64,000 nucleotides of DNA from Actinomyces trachealis (lineage in GTDB: Bacteria; Actinomycetota; Actinomycetes; Actinomycetales; Actinomycetaceae): assembly GCF_015711475.1 (NCBI RefSeq), contig NZ_CP065027.1, positions 1,674,001 through 1,738,000 of the forward strand. Reading direction: 5' to 3'. The notes beneath the pieces were generated by a model, which was not told the origin of the DNA, did not search any database, and worked only from the letters and a program-made list of their open reading frames with translations. Positions within the stretch are counted from its first letter, which is position 1. Each line of letters opens with the position of its first letter. This document shows positions 9,647 to 45,456 of the stretch, piece by piece. The position numbers and the translations under genes are program-made.

Positions 9647-10462
9647 TCAGAAGGTCCAGGTGGCGCCAGCGGTGGCCACATCCACCGGCCCGGAATAGAC
9701 CTCGCGCGCCTCCCCGGCTGGGACATCAGTGTCAGTCCAGGGCTGGATGTGGGTGAGCACTAGGCGCCCGGCGGCGCCGCGCCCACCCTGACCGCTGGTG
9801 CCAGCAGCGAGCTGCCCGGCGCGGCGGCCAGTCATGTGCATACCACGAGGTTCCGTGCCCTGCTCGGTGAAGGCAGCTTCCGCGAGCAGCAGGTCCACGC
9901 CGTCGCTCATCGCCTCAATGCCCTCGCACAGGTCCGTGTCTCCGGTGAAAGCCATGGAGACAGTGCTGGCGCCGTCCTCTCCTGGACCTTCAACACGGTA
10001 GCCATATGCCTCTACTGGATGCAGCGCCGAGAACGGGGTGATGGTGAAGGGGCCGATCTGTACTGGCTGGCCGGGCACCGCCGTCGCGAAGGTGAACTCG
10101 GTGGCGTAGGTCTCCTCCGGCAGGGTGCCGTCCACACCGTTGAGCCGCTCAAGCAGCTCACCAGGCCCGATGGTCAGCACCGGCCCCAGGGCGCCAGCAG
10201 GGTGCCACCGGCGGTAAACGTGCATTCCCACCATGTCGACCATATGGTCGGCGTGGCAGTGTGAAATGAGCAGACCATCAAGCTCAGCCGGGTCCAGGTA
10301 GTTGAGCATCTGCCCCATGGAACCTGGGCCGAGGTCCAACACCAAGGACCAGGTCCGCTCCACGCCGTCGGCACCTGCGGCGCGCGCCTGGACCAGGTAG
10401 GAAGAGGCACTGGAGCAGGGGCCGGACATGGACCCTGAACACCCGATGATGGTCAGCTTCAT
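9647..10462 (-). CDS. MBL-fold metallohydrolase
   Basis: This 271-residue beta-lactamase-fold hydrolase begins [11 protein letters not shown] and carries the dinuclear-metal motif [10 protein letters not shown] (HxHxDH). Further ligands are plausible at [18 protein letters not shown] and VLTHIQPW. It resembles the RNase Z/cyclic-phosphodiesterase-like group that sits beside murI in many actinobacteria. The substrate is not deducible. Its start overlaps the murI stop by 4 bp (ATGA), so it belongs to the murI operon. Confidence 0.85.
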
Positions 10463-32822: not shown

Positions 32823-33095
32823 GAAGAGCCCGTTTGTGAAGAGCCAGTGAACGCTCGACCATGAGCGGCGCCCACCTGCGATGCTCAAAAATATACCGGC
32901 CCTGGCCCAGAAGGGCGGAACCGGTCATGTTGCTCCCAACCCTACGACACCGACGGGCGACCTCTCCTGCTGAGCACTTCCAGGTGGGTCGGCAGTGGGG
33001 TGAGGGCCCTGGGCTCAGCCGTCGTGTCCATGTTCTGCCGCCACGTTACTGACCCCACCTACACCCTCGTTCATGAAGAGCCCCTTTGGCTCTTC
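32823..33095. repeat. Cluster of ISL3-like terminal motifs
   Basis: GAAGAGCC occurs at 32823-32830, 32838-32845 and 33075-33082, and its complement GGCTCTTC at 33088-33095. The same motif closes the ISL3 element at 34557-34564. The stretch between them has no credible gene. It looks like the leftover ends of several insertion or deletion events of the same IS type. Confidence 0.6.
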
Positions 33096-34564
33096 CCAAT
33101 CGGGGGTGTGGTGGTGTGGGCTGGGTGTGGTGTGTTGGTGCGTGGGTGGGTGTCGGGGTCTTCCGATGATGGGAGTTCTGACACACTCACCGGGAAGGCC
33201 TCGACGTGCCTGACGCTACCTTTACTGCGCCTGGCCTGACTACTTTCGCTGGCTTGGACGATCTCGGTCTTGAGGTCACCGGGCAGTGTGTTGAGGCCGA
33301 GCGTGCGGTGCTGGCCTGCCGGGTTCTTGAGCCTGATGACTGGTGTCGGCGGTGCGGCTGTCAGGGGGGTACGCGTGAGGCGGTGACCCGGCGCCTGGCG
33401 CACGTGCCCCTGGGGTGGCGCCCCACCACGCTGGTGGTGCGGGCGGGGCAGGTAGCGCTGCACGGGTTGCGGCCACGTGTGGCGCCAGAGCACGCAGGCG
33501 GCGGCCCAGCCGGGCTCGAAGATCTCCCGGGCTCGCCTGAGGTGGGCCCTGAGCGGGATCGTGGTGCAGCACCTGTCCATGGCCCGGGTGGCCCAGGGCC
33601 TTGGTGTCTGGTGGAGCACGGCCAACGAGGCGGTCCTGGCCGAGGGGATGCGGCTGCTGGTCAACGACCCCTCACGCCTTGAGGGCGTGAGGGTCATCGG
33701 GGTCGATGATTGCCCCGCGCGCTACGCTCTCTAGCGGGAGGTGCCCCCTGTTGTGTGGCGCCACACGCTCAAGGGGGCGGCAAGGTACGTCACGGTGGTC
33801 ATCGACCTGACCCCTCTCAGGGACGGCACGGGCCCGGCTCGTCTGCTTGACATGGTGCCCGCACGCTCCAAGCAGGTGCTCAAGGCCTGGCTGGCTGCGC
33901 GCCCCAGGCTTGGAGGCAGGGCATTGAGGTGGTCGCCATGGACGGCTTCACCGGGTGCCAGGACCGCCGCCAGCCAGGAGCTGGCCGACGCGAGGGCGGT
34001 GCCCGACCCCTTCCACGTGGTGCGCCTGGCCGGTGACGCGCTCGATGGGTGCCGTCGGCGTATCCAGCAGCAGCTGCACGGGCGGCCAGGGGCGCGCTGG
34101 TGACCCCCTGCACACCGGCGCGCCGGATGCTGCACACCGGCCCGACCTGCTCACCGGCAAGCAGCGCGCCCGCCTGAAGGAACTGTTCGCGAACGATGAG
34201 CACACCCTGGTCGAGGTGACCTGGTGGATCTACCAGAAGATGGTGGCCGCCTACCGCCATCGTGACAGGGCCCAGGGCAAGATCCTCATGCAAGAGCTGA
34301 TCACCAGCACCGCCTGCGGCGTGCCACCAGAGCTGAGCGAGGTCACCACCCTGGGGCGCACGCTGCACACACGCGCCACCGACGTACTGGCCTACTTCGA
34401 CCACCCCCGCACCTCCAACGGACCCACCCAAGGCGCTCAACGGCCACCTGGAACACCTACGCGACACCGCACCAGGCTTTCGCAACCTCACCAACTACAC
34501 CACCCACTCACTACTAGAAGCCGACAGGTTCCGCCCCCTGCTACACCCTGGATCATGAAGAGCC
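33088..34564 (+). mobile_element. ISL3-family insertion sequence, degenerate
   Basis: The element of about 1.48 kb is bounded by GGCTCTTC at the left and its complement GAAGAGCC at the right. It holds a frameshifted ISL3 transposase. No target-site duplication is visible: flanks GCCCCTTT and ACCAAAGT differ. This fits a rearrangement or deletion at its left side. Its right end cuts into lanB. Confidence 0.8.
33206..34545 (+). pseudogene. ISL3-family transposase, frameshifted
   Basis: Transposase segments are spread over several frames. They are an N-terminal zinc-finger-like CRRCGCQGG, EGVRVIGVDDCPARYAL ending at TAG, VVWRHTLKGAARYVTVVIDL, ADARAVPDPFHVVRLAGDAL and ARLKELFANDEHTLVEVTW. VLAYFDHPRTSNGPT is last, just before a further shift. 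These are hallmarks of the DDE ISL3 transposase. At least four frame changes or stops make it inactive. Confidence 0.85.
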
Positions 34565-36144
34565 ACCAAAGTTCTAGCAACCCCGGATAACAAGTCTTGG
34601 TTTACCAAACCGGGAGGGTGAATATTCGCAATCTTTTGGTGTTTCTCGTCAAAACAATACATTCTGTCACCCGTTTCGAACAACGAGATATCGGAGAGAT
34701 TGACGGGTGAAACATCTTGAGCGCGGTGAGGAAGAAACCCTAGAGATAATGCAGCACCAGATACTGACAAGTTTCCACTAAGGAAGTCGGGCTTGGGGGA
34801 ATTGTACCTGTACAGGAGAGGCAGCCTCTCAGCGTCCTCCAAATCAGATGCTTCGCTTACAATTATCTGATGGTTCTGTTTCATGTTCGAAGAGAGCTCA
34901 GCAAACCGAGCCATAGCACGTCCGGCAAAGGGAATAGTTCCTATGTCATCGAACACAAACTGTGCAGTAGACTCTCCTGATTGAGAGGTGGTGACTTCGA
35001 CCTTCAATATCATATCATACGATGAGGCGAATTCAATCGCAGGCCAGTTCTCTACTATACGAGTGGCGTAGCTGCTCAGGTCTATACTGGTTTCGCCCGG
35101 ATTCGCAACCAGAATTTCGGACAGGAGTTCGTTTGTTAATTCAAATCTGGCTTGACCTTGTTCAGTAAGACCTTGTTCAGTAAGCTCGAGGTTTCCAGTC
35201 TCAAGAGGCGGGAGAGTAGCAATACCGTCATAGTTATCAATAATCCGATTTGCAGGAAAGCGAAAATTTCCATAGCGAGAGATAAAATCTTGGGTGAAAG
35301 ACTCGATATTTTGGTTCTGAGCAGAAAACGAAAATAGTCTCCCCATCAGTTCGATCGCCTTTGCGGCATCATCAATCAAACTTCCTGGAAGAGTGCCGCT
35401 GAATTCTCCAAGTGAAAACAGTTGCACAGTTGATGTAATACTTCCAGAAGATTCCTTTTCTTCTTTCCAGCCACTGATCTTATATGATGGTGGAAACGCT
35501 AAGAGTATCTCCGCTGAGATTAGGCCATCGATGAAGCTGTCAAGACCACCGTCGGCACCGAACACTTCCTCCAGTTTTGAGGCGATTAACTCGCGACTAA
35601 CTGTGCGACCTTCGGTTATTTGTTTTACAGCTTCCACAGCCGCACTGAATCGGACGGAAATAGTCTCCTGATTTTTTGATGGCGATGGAATATATACTCG
35701 CTCACCTGAAACATAGGCAGACTGGTTAAAAGTATATAACTGTTCCTCTTCGCGATGCTCTTCTGCTACACGTTCCAGGACCTGCTTCTGATCCAAAACT
35801 AGGTCAAGGCTATTAGGACTCCACTTAAGATCCCCAAGCACTCCAACGGTTGCGTAGGTTGAGAAGGGAGTTGCTCTGGTCGTGAGCCTCGAAAGGTATT
35901 TCAACGCACTTCGGTTGACCTTTGACACTTTTGTTTCATCAGCGAATGCGCCATCAGAAATGGTTTTCGTGATGGCGTCGTAAAATGCAGGCGCGGAACT
36001 AGCAAGGACCGAACTAAGACTTGGATTCGATAGAACAGTGTCAGTGAACGCCGTCAACGGAGTGTCACAGCCGCTTGGGAACTTATCTACAGGAAGTGCA
36101 GCTATCCTCACATATGGTCGTCCAAGCAAATTGTAATTAGGCAC
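34495..36144 (-). pseudogene. lanB: Truncated lantibiotic dehydratase LanB (N-terminal part)
   Basis: The 549-codon frame starts with GTG at 36144 and shows the LanB N-terminal fold (YNLLGRPYVRIAALPVDKFP; KYLSRLTTRATPFSTYATVG, the conserved Arg-rich TPF segment). LanB enzymes glutamylate and dehydrate Ser/Thr of the precursor and are normally about 1,000 residues. Here only about 527 native residues remain. The last 22 codons, from ALHDPG on, are read from the ISL3 end, and the glutamate-elimination domain is gone. The start overlaps the lanG stop, so it ended a lanAFEGB operon. The lower GC than the surroundings points to horizontal acquisition. Confidence 0.9.
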
Positions 36145-36759
36145 GTTTCACCGACCTTAATAGAAGCCATACGCTCAAGGTGCTTAGGAGAAGTCCGGCA
36201 GGAATTACGTAGGCCGGAAAGTGACTCCATTCAAAATCCAAGTAGTTGGAATGAGAGCATACAGGAACGGTGAGTTTTCAAACATGCCTGTGCTGATCGG
36301 AAGGCCGACTACAACGAAAAAGATGATAATAATCCAGGAGACCATTGAGCTAGCCCAAAGCCGAAGCACAAAACAGGCCAGAGTTAGGACGGCTGATGTG
36401 AAAATAAGAACTAAGGCAGCATTAACCGAAAGCGGCTCATTAACAAGCAGACCGACAGCAATGACGTAAAGTACGCTCAGACAGAGGTTAACTACTTGTG
36501 CAAGGAGCAGAGACTTAGCGATAAAACGGAGCATAGCCTGATTATGAATACTGAAAGACGCATACGAGGAGGAGACCCTAGCATGCGACAAAGCGAGACC
36601 GGCCGTGGCGATTGGAAGCACTATTAGTAACGCCGATTGAGCTACAGCAATTGTGTTTCCGTATCGCAGGAACAACAGTGGAAGAAACAGCGCGCCAATA
36701 TAGGCGATGGACGACCAATGAATGAGTGCGATTCGCTCGATAGAGCATAAATTCTTCAC
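36137..36759 (-). pseudogene. lanG: Lantibiotic immunity ABC permease LanG, frameshifted
   Basis: Starting with GTG at 36757-36759 (overlapping the lanE stop as GTGA), the frame gives five membrane segments, for example IAVAQSALLIVLPIATAGLA and MVSWIIIIFFVVVGLPIS. It then ends early at ALIPTTWILNGVTFRPT. In the neighbouring frame the expected continuation is present: YLDFEWSHFPAYVIPAG, a final membrane helix LLLSTLSVWLLLR and SVKRA, stopping at 36137. A single-base indel near 36240-36260 therefore broke a protein of about 207 residues. The full protein would be a six-helix LanE/LanG-type permease pumping lantibiotic off the membrane. Confidence 0.85.
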
Positions 36760-37481
36760 TTTTTTCCTGCTCCTTTACTTCGAAGCCTACTCACAAGAGC
36801 ATAGGTAGCGATTAGGATTGCAAGCGGGATAAACATGGAGAGACTAAGGTATGATTGTCCTTGCATCCCTGCTAACGAGATTGCGGTGCCATTGAGGTTT
36901 AGTCCTACTGACCGCAGAGCGTTTGATATAAATGGAGTAGCAATTTCGGATAGGCTCCCAGGTAGTACTATCCATAGATATAGCAGAGCACCTGAAACTA
37001 TCGCGGCAGTCTGGGGGTTTGAGAGGCTCTCTAATATCGAGTAGATCAGCGAAATGGATATACTCTGAAGAGCAAGAAGGCAGAGCAGGGTTGTTAGACC
37101 TGAGTGCATCTTCGAACCAGAGAGCATCATTATCACGTCGAAGGACAGCACGCTAAATAGGTTCAAAAGAATTGTTATTAACGTTCAACAGATAGTGCGA
37201 AGAACGCAAGGAAACCAGGCAAAGTACACCTGCCTAGGTAAACCACCGTAGTGAATCTTGGAGACTCTTGCATCAAGCGCGAAGAGTAGGGCTAGCGAAA
37301 TCAGCGGCTGTGTGCCCGTAAAGAAGAAGCTGTATCCTCCTGTTATTTGGGTTCCGTTTGCCTCGTTTGAAATCCATGCGCCCAGAAGCAGGGAGACCCC
37401 CGAGCCTAAAGCAGCCGTGAGAAAATACCAGACATTCCAATAGTAGGCAACCAAAGCACGAATAGCAGAAGTGGTTGTCAC
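36756..37481 (-). pseudogene. lanE: Lantibiotic immunity ABC permease LanE, interrupted by in-frame TGA
   Basis: One continuous frame of 242 codons, the normal size for LanE, is cut at codon 99 by TGA (37185-37187): VLRTIC, stop, TLITILLNLFSVLSFDV. Both halves are membrane protein in the same frame, with six hydrophobic segments overall (for example WYFLTAALGSGVSLLLG, TLLCLLALQSISISLIYSI, MFIPLAILIATYALV). A change of TGG or CGA to TGA is the simplest cause. The GTG start lies 4 bp after lanF ends. Restart at the TTG at 37166 is possible but would lack two helices. Confidence 0.85.
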
Positions 37482-37485
37482 GGCT

Positions 37486-38137
37486 CTACCTCCCGTGATA
37501 TAGATCCGCGAGATTCACCCCGTCTAGATCAGGGATATGTAAAGCTTGGCCGTTACGAACTACTACACACTCGTCCGGGACACCTTGAATCTCATGGAGT
37601 AGGTGCGTTGATATTACAACACAGTTCCCTTTGTCTCTATAGAGACGAAGCGTCTCAGACAAGGAAATCATGCCATCCAGATCCAAACCGTTCTGTGGTT
37701 CATCTAGGAAGAGGAATTTGGGTCTCGGCAATAGAGCAAGACAAAGTTCCAGCCGCTCCTTCATACCGGTCGAGTAGTCCTTGGCTTTCCGCCCGTGGGC
37801 AGCACGGTCGATGCCGACGCTGTTCTGACTCAGGATCAACATCCAGACCCCAAAACGCTGAGACAACCTGTACATTTTGCTTGCCACTCAGGTAGGGAAA
37901 GTAGCTTGGATGGTCGATTGCGGCTGACATCTCGCTAATGTCCGTCTGATCGTAGCTAATGTGACCACCTACTGGTTTTATCCGGCCCAGCAGTGTCTTC
38001 ATTAGTGTGGTTTTGCCTGCCCCGTTTGGCCCAAGGAGGCAGATAATCTTTCCAGTGTTCAGCTGCAGGTGAATGTCACTTATTATTGGGGAATTCTTGT
38101 ACCCAACCGACAAATCGGTTACTGATATAGCTGGCAT
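37486..38137 (-). pseudogene. lanF: Lantibiotic immunity ABC ATPase LanF, frameshifted
   Basis: The N-terminal part reads ISVTDLSVGYKNSPIISDIH, Walker A GPNGAGKTTLMKTLLG and YLSGKQNVQVVSAFWGLDVD. The rest lies in another frame: SVGIDRAAHGRKAKDYSTG (signature), FLFLDEPQNGLDLDG (Walker B) and VVISTHLLHEIQ (H-loop). The switch is near 37835. Aligned with the usual spacing, about three to four residues are missing as well, so a deletion of roughly 10-11 bp is more likely than a single indel. All ATPase motifs survive otherwise. Confidence 0.85.
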
Positions 38138-38159: not shown

Positions 38160-38199
38160 GCCCTGGAGCCAAAGGCTAAGGATGTCCTGCCTCCAGGGC
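38160..38199 (-). terminator. Attenuator-like hairpin between lanA and lanF
   Basis: Arms GCCCTGGAG (38160-38168) and CTCCAGGGC (38191-38199) are perfectly complementary across a 22-nt loop. Such a partial terminator between the precursor gene and downstream genes commonly makes lanA transcripts far more abundant. Confidence 0.65.
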
Positions 38200-38222: not shown

Positions 38223-38387
38223 CTACTTGCAGCCAAGGGAGAGGCTGCAACCTTTAGTACATTGGGATGTAAAGCAGGCAAAGCCGCCGGTCGGGCACCC
38301 AGGAGTGCACAGGAACTTCGAGGTGATTTGAGGACGAATGCCCGCCTCAGCCTCTTCAACACGGGTATCAAGGTCAAAAGTGGCCAT
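38223..38387 (-). CDS. lanA: Class I lantibiotic precursor peptide, nisin/gallidermin-like
   Basis: This 54-residue precursor has a 20-residue leader containing the FDLD box recognised by LanB/LanC and ending IRPQ (subtilin's leader also ends in PQ). The 34-residue core begins ITSKFLCTPGC. That segment holds ring A (Ser3-Cys7) and ring B (Thr8-Cys11), the lipid II-binding pair of nisin, and equals gallidermin from Ser3 to Cys11. The remainder has Thr13-Cys18, then T/S-rich pairs ending at Cys23, Cys27 and Cys33, and a final Lys. This gives six Cys and nine Ser/Thr, enough for six rings against five in nisin. GGAGAA precedes the ATG at 38387; an ATG at 38417 would add 10 residues. The gene is intact although all companions are broken. 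Confidence 0.92.
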   Translation of the reverse strand: MATFDLDTRVEEAEAGIRPQITSKFLCTPGCPTGGFACFTSQCTKGCSLSLGCK

Positions 38388-38404
38388 GTTTTCTCCAATC
38401 TCGT

Positions 38405-38514
38405 AGAATCTGAACATAAGCGGGTAGTAAGAAGTTACCCGCGGCGTAATTGTACAACAAGGTGCAACGAGTTGCGAATCGGCCGAGGAGTAACTTCTAA
38501 AATGTTCAGATTCT
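38405..38514. repeat. Inverted repeat flanking the lanA promoter region
   Basis: AGAATCTGAACAT (38405-38417) and AGAAGTTAC (38430-38438) recur in inverted order at 38490-38498 and 38502-38514. The outer 13-bp arms are exact. Between the arms, on the minus strand, a TACAAT box (38449-38454) has TTCGCA 18 bp upstream, a reasonable promoter for lanA. The repeat could be an operator pair, an RNA hairpin or recombination sites. Confidence 0.65.
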
Positions 38515-38519
38515 ATTAA

Positions 38520-39222
38520 CGCTTTGACCTATTCAGACTCCTTCGCAACTGAGACGAGGCGGTTAAATTTGGCAACAGATGTAAGTGTAACATAGAAAAT
38601 ATAACGAAGACAACTCAAGAATCGCTGGCGTTGGGGCTCTACCCAAGCCAACGATTGGTAGACAATCTTACATGCCACCCTGCCATGTCAAACTGACAAC
38701 GAAGTGGGAATTAGTTTTACGATTTTATCAAGATTCCATTTGATACGACAAGGGCAAACATTTTGGCGCGAGGCCATACTTTTGACGCTTCGTGCCTCAA
38801 CCGGCCGGGCGCCCCCCCTGAGAGGGCCCGAACCCCTAACCAGCGGGCACCCAGGAGCCTCTCGACGTCTCCACCCGCCCGACTCCCGCACCCAAAAACC
38901 GCCCCCCCAGAACAACAAAACGCCACCCCGGACACTTCTCGACCGGGCCGGAAATCCTCGTATCCAGAGTGACGTGCTATTGAAACCTTTTCGCGGAAGC
39001 GATACGTTTTGGCGCAAGCCAAACAATTTAGCGGATAGGACTACATCAGCCACCACTCGCCGTCAGAACACTCAAAACCGCCTGCGAACCCTGCCCCAAC
39101 AGTCACCAAACTACAGTTGTCGAACCCTACAGAACGCCAAAAACCCGCGATAACAGGCCAAAACGCCCATTCCGATACACTACTGAGCCGCGCCGGGCTT
39201 TGTATCAAAATGGGGGCCTAAG
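38520..39222. other. Intergenic region, no gene seen
   Basis: About 700 bp start AT-rich next to lanA and become mixed further right. Open frames here have no ribosome binding site and a composition (runs of Pro, Arg, Ser) unlike protein. Two similar segments, TTTTGGCGCGAGGCC near 38762 and TTTTGGCGCAAGCC near 39008, are the only repetition noted. Confidence 0.45.
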
Positions 39223-39296
39223 TGGAGCGGGTGACGGGAATCGAACCCGCGCAATCTGCTTGGAAGGCAGAGGCTCTACCATTGAGCTACACCCGC
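39223..39296 (-). tRNA. tRNA-Gly (anticodon TCC)
   Basis: On the minus strand the acceptor GCGGGTG pairs with CACCCGC. The D arm is followed by anticodon stem CTGCC/GGCAG-like pairing around loop TTCCAAG with TCC, and the T arm reads GGGTTCGATTCCC. CCA is encoded. It reads GGA and possibly GGG glycine codons. Confidence 0.95.
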
Positions 39297-44155: not shown

Positions 44156-45178
44156 TTATCTGGCGTCGGCGGTTGCCGGTTGGGGGTGGTTGGTGGTGGG
44201 CGCGTGGGTGTCGGCGTCCGGTTGCCAGGCGCTTTCGTGCTCGACGGGGGTGCGCATGGCGATAGCGGAGTGGGGGCGGGTGGTGTTGTACCAGTGGACC
44301 CACTCGGCGGTGGCGATCTCGACGTCGTCCAGGCCCTGCCAGGGGCCGTGGGCGTCGAGGTAGGCGCGGTTGCGGATGAGTTCGGCTTTGTATAGTGAGT
44401 TCAGGGCCTCGGCCAGGGCGTTGTCGTAGGAGTCGCCCTTGGAGCCGACGGAGGCCACGGCGTCGGCCTGGCTCAGGGCCTGGCCGTAGCGGATGGCGCG
44501 GTACTGCACCCCGCGGTCGGAGTGGTGGATCAGGCCCGTCAGGTCGGCCCCCTCGCGCTGGCGCTGCCAGATGGCCATCCTCAGGGCGTCCAGGGCCAGG
44601 TCGGTGTGCAGGCTGGTGGAGGTCTGCCAGCCGATGATCCGGCGCGAGTAGACGTCGGTGACGAAGGCGACGTACACCCACCCGCCCATGGTGCGCACAC
44701 AGGTGATGTCGGCCACCCACAGCTCGTTGGGTCTGAACGCGCTGAAGTGGCGGTCCACCAGGTCCGCGGGGCACTGCTCCTTGGGCGCGGAGCGGGTCGT
44801 CCTGGGCGGCTTGGCGCGGCGGATGCCGTGCAGGTCCATGGCGCGCACGAGCCGCTCGATGGTGCAGCGGGCCACGTGACCCGCCCCGTGGCGCGCGGCG
44901 CTCTCGGGGCGGTTGAGCACCACGTGCATCTTGCGCGCGCCCAGGGCCGCGTAGTTGTCGGCGTGCAGGCGCCTGATCTCGGCCCTGAGGGTCTGGTCGC
45001 GTCTACTCCTTGCTGATGGTGGGCGGGACTTGGCCGCGTAGTAGGTGCTCGGGGCGATCTTGACGTCGGCGCTGGTGGGCGCCTCGCAGATCGGCTCGAC
45101 CCCGAACTCGGACCTGTGGGAGTCGATGTACTTGCAGATCAGCGCGATGGGCGGCCTGGCTCCGCCGCGAAAAAAGCC
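44156..45178 (-). CDS. IS3-family transposase OrfB (DDE integrase part)
   Basis: The frame is open from the slippery TTTTTTC at 45169-45175 to the stop. It starts in the -1 frame as GFFRGGARPPIALICKYIDS and includes RRDQTLRAEIRRLHADNYA and YAALGARKMHVVLNRPE. The DDE core follows: ELWVADITCVRTMGG, GLIHHSDRGVQYRA and SYDNALAEALNSLYKAE. No internal stop is present, so the OrfAB transposase appears intact. An internal ATG at 44929 would give only the C-terminal 257 residues. Confidence 0.88.
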   Translation of the reverse strand, partial: GFFRGGARPPIALICKYIDSHRSEFGVEPICEAPTSADVKIAPSTYYAAKSRPPSARSRRDQTLRAEIRRLHADNYAALGARKMHVVLNRPESAARHGAGHVARCTIERLVRAMDLHGIRRAKPPRTTRSAPKEQCPADLVDRHFSAFRPNELWVADITCVRTMGGWVYVAFVTDVYSRRIIGWQTSTSLHTDLALDALRMAIWQRQREGADLTGLIHHSDRGVQYRAIRYGQALSQADAVASVGSKGDSYDNALAEALNSLYKAELIRNRAYLDAHGPWQGLDDVEIATAEWVHWYNTTRPHSAIAMRTPVEHESAWQPDADTHAPTTNHPQPATADAR

Positions 45179-45456
45179 GACGCGCTCCTCAAGATGGCGT
45201 TGGCCCGCCGCAGCTCACGGTTCTCAGCCTCCAGCTGTCTGATCCGCTCGGCGTCCGCGCTGGTGGTCCCCGGCCTGGAGCCTGCGTCGATCTCGGCCCT
45301 CTTGACCCAGGTGCGCAGCGCCTCGGGGTGCACGCCCAGCTCCTCGCCGATCCTTCTGATCGCTCCCTTGGCCCGCTCAGGATCCCGACGGGCCTCCACG
45401 GCCATCCGGGTAGCCCGCTCACGCAGCTCGTCGGGGTACTTCCTCGGTGCACTCAT
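45139..45456 (-). CDS. IS3-family transposase OrfA (helix-turn-helix)
   Basis: This 105-residue protein begins MSAPRKYPDELRERATRMAV, has the HTH region GEELGVHPEALRTWVKRAEI and a leucine-zipper-like RIRQLEAENRELRRANAILR. Near its end the codons GCT TTT TTC provide a slippery run for a -1 shift into orfB, the normal way IS3 elements make the fusion transposase. Confidence 0.92.
   Translation of the reverse strand: MSAPRKYPDELRERATRMAVEARRDPERAKGAIRRIGEELGVHPEALRTWVKRAEIDAGSRPGTTSADAERIRQLEAENRELRRANAILRSASAFFAAEPGRPSR

Follow-up and report, generated by a model that had tools for sequence, protein, structure and literature searches.

The lantibiotic locus

In the window, the 64,000-nucleotide stretch of the Actinomyces trachealis genome analysed here, the minus strand carries a small intact frame, lanA (38223..38387), that runs from an ATG at 38387 to a TAG at 38225-38223 and encodes 54 amino acids. 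Its product divides into a leader (38328-38387; MATFDLDTRVEEAEAGIRPQ) and a 34-residue core (38226-38327; ITSKFLCTPGCPTGGFACFTSQCTKGCSLSLGCK), and it scores above the curated cut-offs of Pfam Gallidermin PF02052 (31 bits, cut-off 21), of NCBIfam TIGR03731 (43 bits, cut-off 29.3) and of the FDLD lanthipeptide family NF038155 (25.2 bits, cut-off 20; leader box MATFDLD). By these cut-offs lanA is more than a chance frame and is predicted to encode a class I lantibiotic precursor of the gallidermin/nisin type. An earlier note on this DNA had proposed such an intact 54-codon precursor of the nisin/gallidermin family, with an FDLD leader box, a leader ending in Pro-Gln and an SxxxCTPGC head for rings A and B; all of this stands, letters and coordinates included, and only the strand had been left unstated. 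The broken cluster that surrounds the gene was not mentioned there.

A GGAG stretch (38393..38396, minus strand), read from the sequence as a putative ribosome-binding site, lies 5 bases ahead of the ATG. Because of this stretch and of the start sites in relatives, the start at 38387 is favoured over that of a longer alternative frame with its ATG at 38417. An imperfect inverted repeat surrounds the region upstream of lanA (38404..38515, with exact arms at 38405-38417 and 38502-38514), and the 131-nt fold of 38395-38525 has a z-score of -5.1; the repeat may be a regulator site or the end of an element. By eye, a weaker counterpart seems to be present in G521, a genome from another family of the same order that is described below, where it is cut by a tRNA end. 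Between lanA and the ATPase gene lies a hairpin (38160..38199, minus strand) of -29.7 kcal/mol that is not significant (z -0.9; 32 of 200 shuffles are as good); the hairpin at the same place in G521 reaches -40.5 (z -5.15). Stem-loops after lanA are known from other lanA genes.

Three transporter-like genes follow on the minus strand, all broken in the window and all open in G521, which encodes an ATPase of 218 aa and permeases of 241 and 207 aa. The lanF-like ABC ATPase gene (37486..38137), named by position and best family match, consists of two overlapping frames, 38137-37700 and 37887-37486, and shows a small out-of-frame deletion relative to the G521 copy. The two pieces score 79 and 58 bits against the lantibiotic protection family TIGR03740, less than the 309.75 bits set as its cut-off; the open G521 ATPase obtains 151.8 bits in the same comparison, and this is still its best family. 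The lanE-like permease gene (36756..37481) is broken by one in-frame TGA into pieces 37481-37185 and 37166-36756, and the frame of the lanG-like permease gene (36205..36759) breaks near its 3' end, at 184 aa as against 207 in G521. Neither permease matches a Pfam or NCBIfam family, and both are named by position; the three names together draw on position, the TIGR03740 match of the ATPase and established lantibiotic clusters. The transporter is presumed to have served immunity.

Of lanB (34566..36144, minus strand) only the N-terminal dehydratase part is left. It matches PF04738 only; the elimination domain PF14028 is absent from the remnant, and a complete LanB with N- and C-terminal domains was not found in the genome. 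The break coincides with the end, at 34565, of an ISL3-type insertion sequence (33087..34565, plus strand) that contains a PF01610 transposase in broken frames and has imperfect terminal inverted repeats (78%); eight further matches to the element occur in the genome, all partial and some at one place. The lanB frame continues into the element as far as 34495, giving an open frame of 549 aa compared with 1040 in Curtobacterium. No continuation of lanB past the element was found by a search that is weak given the divergence of LanB. Within the remnant, a perfect 15-bp tandem duplication (35154-35183) repeats LTEQG in frame. Further on, at 44156-45456, lie frames that we take to resemble an IS3-type transposase pair; the area may be IS-rich.

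The genome itself is a single contig, rated 99.99% complete. The LanB family model, which does detect the remnant in the window, found no other LanB in this genome (G000) and none in G521, and matched 0 of 14 control genomes. LANC_like (PF05147) likewise matched neither of the two genomes, the same search matching 1 of 14 control genomes.

The GC content is 46% in lanB, 48% in the transporter genes and 55% in lanA, with 64% for the window, and judged by composition the low-GC block looks acquired. It is bordered by a tRNA-Gly(TCC) gene (39223..39296, minus strand); the repeated tRNA end that would mark integration there was not found in the window.

Distribution and a second relic

The genomes were sampled at one per species. 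As the earlier note had advised, related genomes were searched, and the precursor is missing from all others examined, 48 in the genus and 212 in the family; with a permease as query, the window's genome was the sole carrier among 213. In the order sample (396 genomes) the precursor occurs in one other genome, G521, which is the sole precursor carrier among 35 genomes of its genus and, in a family sample of 197, the sole carrier of the permease. Using alignment A2, and judging from tables only, we set aside as chance 15 of 16 matches in the order sample around G521, all within frames of 380-415 aa in one genus and at 21-26 bits, and 2 of 3 matches in the class sample of 394 genomes (22 bits, partial). 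Among viral contigs, 19 stretches fit the pattern and none encodes a relative of the precursor. Two of 72,556 plasmid records match; both are of the Staphylococcus gallidermin type (51% over 74% of the query) and are not closer. Four core motifs had no occurrence in the text of 5.39 million open-access papers, figures and supplements aside, and the accessible parts of a Curtobacterium paper (PMC10456417) and of a urobiome paper (PMC11153084) held no such peptide.

The window and G521 loci are 78.9% identical across 2493 aligned columns (about 2.5 kb). In G521 lanA has decayed: Thr8 and Thr24 are changed to Ala and Ser28 to Gly, the leader contains a Cys and has VDLD in place of FDLD, and the stop codon is lost. 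Its lanB breaks off about 62 codons in; the stretch found there matches window:32731-32830 and resembles the end of an insertion sequence. The 3' end of a tRNA-Met is present as 31-nt exact copies (L006:4222-4252 and 9769-9799), the second just past the lanA upstream region, and such a repeat would be the usual scar of tRNA integration. Flanked in this way by the tRNA-Met gene and the further copy of its 3' end, the locus has the appearance of an island integrated at a tRNA, in which the LanFEG-like transporter is open and lanA decayed. A Mutator-family transposase (PF00872) also lies inside this stretch (L006:4178-9800). According to the accessible part of PMC10257480, orphan LanFEG-like transporters in non-makers confer lantibiotic resistance, and an immunity-only role of the putative transporter in G521 is therefore plausible.

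In a comparison of the two loci, the ATPase pieces show dN/dS values of 0.06-0.08, the permease pieces 0.11-0.31 and lanA 0.35 (its core 0.23), which for a pair of relics suggests that most of the divergence predates the decay. Precursors 61% identical to that of the window are encoded in C. flaccumfaciens JUb65 (L002) and Curtobacterium sp. VKM Ac-2922 (L003). At the 16 residues that differ between the two lanA genes, the Curtobacterium state is kept by the window at 6, by G521 at 3 and by neither at 7, and both lost ring threonines (8 and 24) are on the G521 side; lanA of the window would therefore have decayed little. The surrounding genes were probably damaged late relative to the split between window and G521. 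The lack of a lesion in lanA is weak evidence of use, since the gene is short.

Predicted rings of the core

The core contains six cysteines (7, 11, 18, 23, 27 and 33) and nine Ser/Thr residues (2, 3, 8, 13, 20, 21, 24, 28 and 30), among them Ser3-Cys7 and Thr8-Pro-Gly-Cys11 of the A and B rings. Six rings, as the earlier note had reckoned, are arithmetically possible with predicted pairs. By spacing, the likely rings are 3-7, 8-11, 13-18, 20-23 and 24-27, together with 30-33 or 28-33, and the first five would be common to the window and Curtobacterium precursors. For the core, the calculated [M+H]+ is 3338.5 after six dehydrations, 3320.5 after seven, 3302.5 after eight and 3284.5 after nine.

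The product of the ancestor may have been five-ringed, with the last cysteine free, otherwise partnered or part of an overlapping topology, and the six-ring architecture would then be unreal. We regard this as a serious possibility, if not the one we would back, and since it concerns the product of the ancestor it is compatible with the explanation of the locus given below. The Curtobacterium precursors, which have the same first five cysteines and no sixth (their tail reads TISSSSA), fit five rings, as does the fact that both Ser28 and Ser30 are able to pair with Cys33. Against five rings, Cys33 is found in both relics and G521 has kept Ser30, having lost Ser28; this retention in G521 points to a sixth ring weakly, because the lanA of G521 is itself decayed.

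Tentatively, and short of even confidence, we picture the lantibiotic of the island ancestor as having a lipid II cage formed by rings A and B, a ring C, and then three separate, non-interlocked four-residue rings (20-23, 24-27 and 30-33). The same tentative picture includes a core module common to two barely related dehydratase systems, and complementary wrecks in two families of one order, with the precursor surviving in one and the presumed immunity transporter in the other.

A probable remnant of an acquired cluster

The locus is best read as what is left of a mobile island for a class I lantibiotic, whose ancestral form would have made a lipid II binder with five or six rings. That a horizontally acquired class I cluster has left this remnant, and that the route in this strain halts before the mature peptide, we consider highly probable (about 0.9). 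The cluster order would have been lanA-lanF-lanE-lanG-lanB, probably then lanC. In the ancestor, LanB would have dehydrated Ser and Thr residues, LanC would have closed the five rings from 3-7 to 24-27 and probably 30-33, and the leader would have been cleaved after Pro-Gln. Rings A and B would then have gripped lipid II by its pyrophosphate, with the LanFEG-like transporter shielding the maker.

The class I route needs an elimination domain and a cyclase of the NisB/NisC type, and because both are missing no mature lantibiotic is expected from this route. Since the finishing genes, and probably the protecting genes, are broken or missing, it is almost certain that the strain does not produce the lantibiotic. 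The earlier note had named a dead relic as the alternative. For this genome the alternative was right, given the truncated lanB, the missing LanC match and the broken transporter; the ground for it is this broken cluster and not, as had been supposed, absence from related genomes together with a missing transcript, of which the first is true in the sample.

Counting against a relic are the precursor without lesion and the Curtobacterium states it has kept (6 versus 3), which would also fit continued use. If the lantibiotic were still made, the intact precursor would have to be modified in trans, with enzymes supplied from another place in the cell or by neighbouring cells. The undamaged precursor and the dN/dS of its core relative to G521 agree with this; however, a one-contig genome of such completeness offers neither a LanC match nor a second LanB, and with the presumed immunity transporter broken in three genes a maker would probably be unprotected, so that we hold continued production to be very improbable. 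Hardly credible either is retention of lanA for another role, for instance as a signal or decoy, by which it would have outlived its enzymes: it has no lesion while lanB and three transporter genes are damaged, but a 165-bp target avoids lesions longer by chance and the gene is missing from all sampled relatives in genus and family.

As a remnant of an acquired cluster, the locus provides two useful parts, the intact six-cysteine core and one half of a pair of complementary relics. If six separate rings form, a ring-rich and probably stable relative of nisin could be reached more simply through this tail than through the overlapping rings that geobacillin I has. The intact precursor would allow the tail to be tested in an existing modification system. 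The relic pair shows a lantibiotic island that decays in two ways, the presumed immunity genes outlasting the antibiotic in one host, and it bears on the source of orphan lantibiotic-resistance transporters.

Comparison with known lantibiotics

With the nisin/gallidermin family (TIGR03731, PF02052) the locus shares the leader box, the SxxxCTPGC pattern of rings A and B, a LanB-type dehydratase and LanFEG-like genes. It differs in that the cluster is broken and in the tail of the peptide, which has neither the interlocked D/E rings of nisin nor the C-terminal ring of gallidermin. The head ITSKFLCTPGC recurs letter for letter in a precursor from a Lachnospiraceae MAG (L004).

The Curtobacterium precursors have, like that of the window, an FDLD leader ending in PQ and a core of the form CTPGCPTGGFACFT..CT.GC with cysteines 7, 11, 18, 23 and 27, the motif PTGGFACFT..CT.GC being common to the middle of both cores; they differ from it in lacking the sixth cysteine. 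In L002, lanA, lanB and lanC adjoin, and the family search found both LanB domains and LanC; in L003, frames of like size adjoin the precursor, the family scan covering L002 alone. Gene order differs from that of the window, with transporter-like genes outside the A-B-C group. Directly upstream of lanA in L002 lies a 202-aa gene (L002:9265-9870) that by eye is regulator-like (DNA-binding) and has no Pfam or NCBIfam match. The window and L002 do not match at the DNA level, and, next to the identity of the precursors, the LanB proteins (window:34495-36144 and L002:10241-13360) are only about 20-24% identical. It seems that the precursor core was retained or swapped independently of its LanB enzyme.

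The best PDB match of the precursor is chain C of 9g05, named 'Lantibiotic, gallidermin/nisin family', with cysteines 7, 11, 18, 24, 27, 30 and 33. Its Ser/Thr-Cys order, minus Thr2 and Ser5, equals the bridge code of geobacillin I in the accessible part of PMC11251773, and from its cysteine pattern the chain would be of the geobacillin type. It resembles the window core in the position of cysteines 7, 11, 18, 27 and 33, in the short ring C (13-18) and in length. The geobacillin type has seven cysteines and overlapping C-terminal rings in four-residue steps, in contrast to the six cysteines and possibly separate TxxC/SxxC rings of the window, and past residue 18 the two cores agree by position at 3 of 15 residues. 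The accessible parts of the sources give seven rings for geobacillin I and elgicin (PMC11251773; geobacillin I also PMC6165006).

Nisin-like LanAs in actinobacteria have already been published, as has an epidermin-like class I LanA of Actinomyces sp. oral taxon 848 (accessible part of PMC3091789); the latter, an 86-aa precursor of the epidermin-like group, is set beside that of the window by description only. The earlier note had held that the core past its head matches no lantibiotic, which did not survive comparison with the shared Curtobacterium motif and the five co-positioned cysteines of the geobacillin-type chain. Its new hybrid architecture was overdrawn as well, being preceded by the Curtobacterium relatives, by the L004 head and by seven-ring geobacillin I and elgicin. 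As far as its sequence tells, the precursor is a variant within a known kind of lantibiotic and not a hybrid without precedent.
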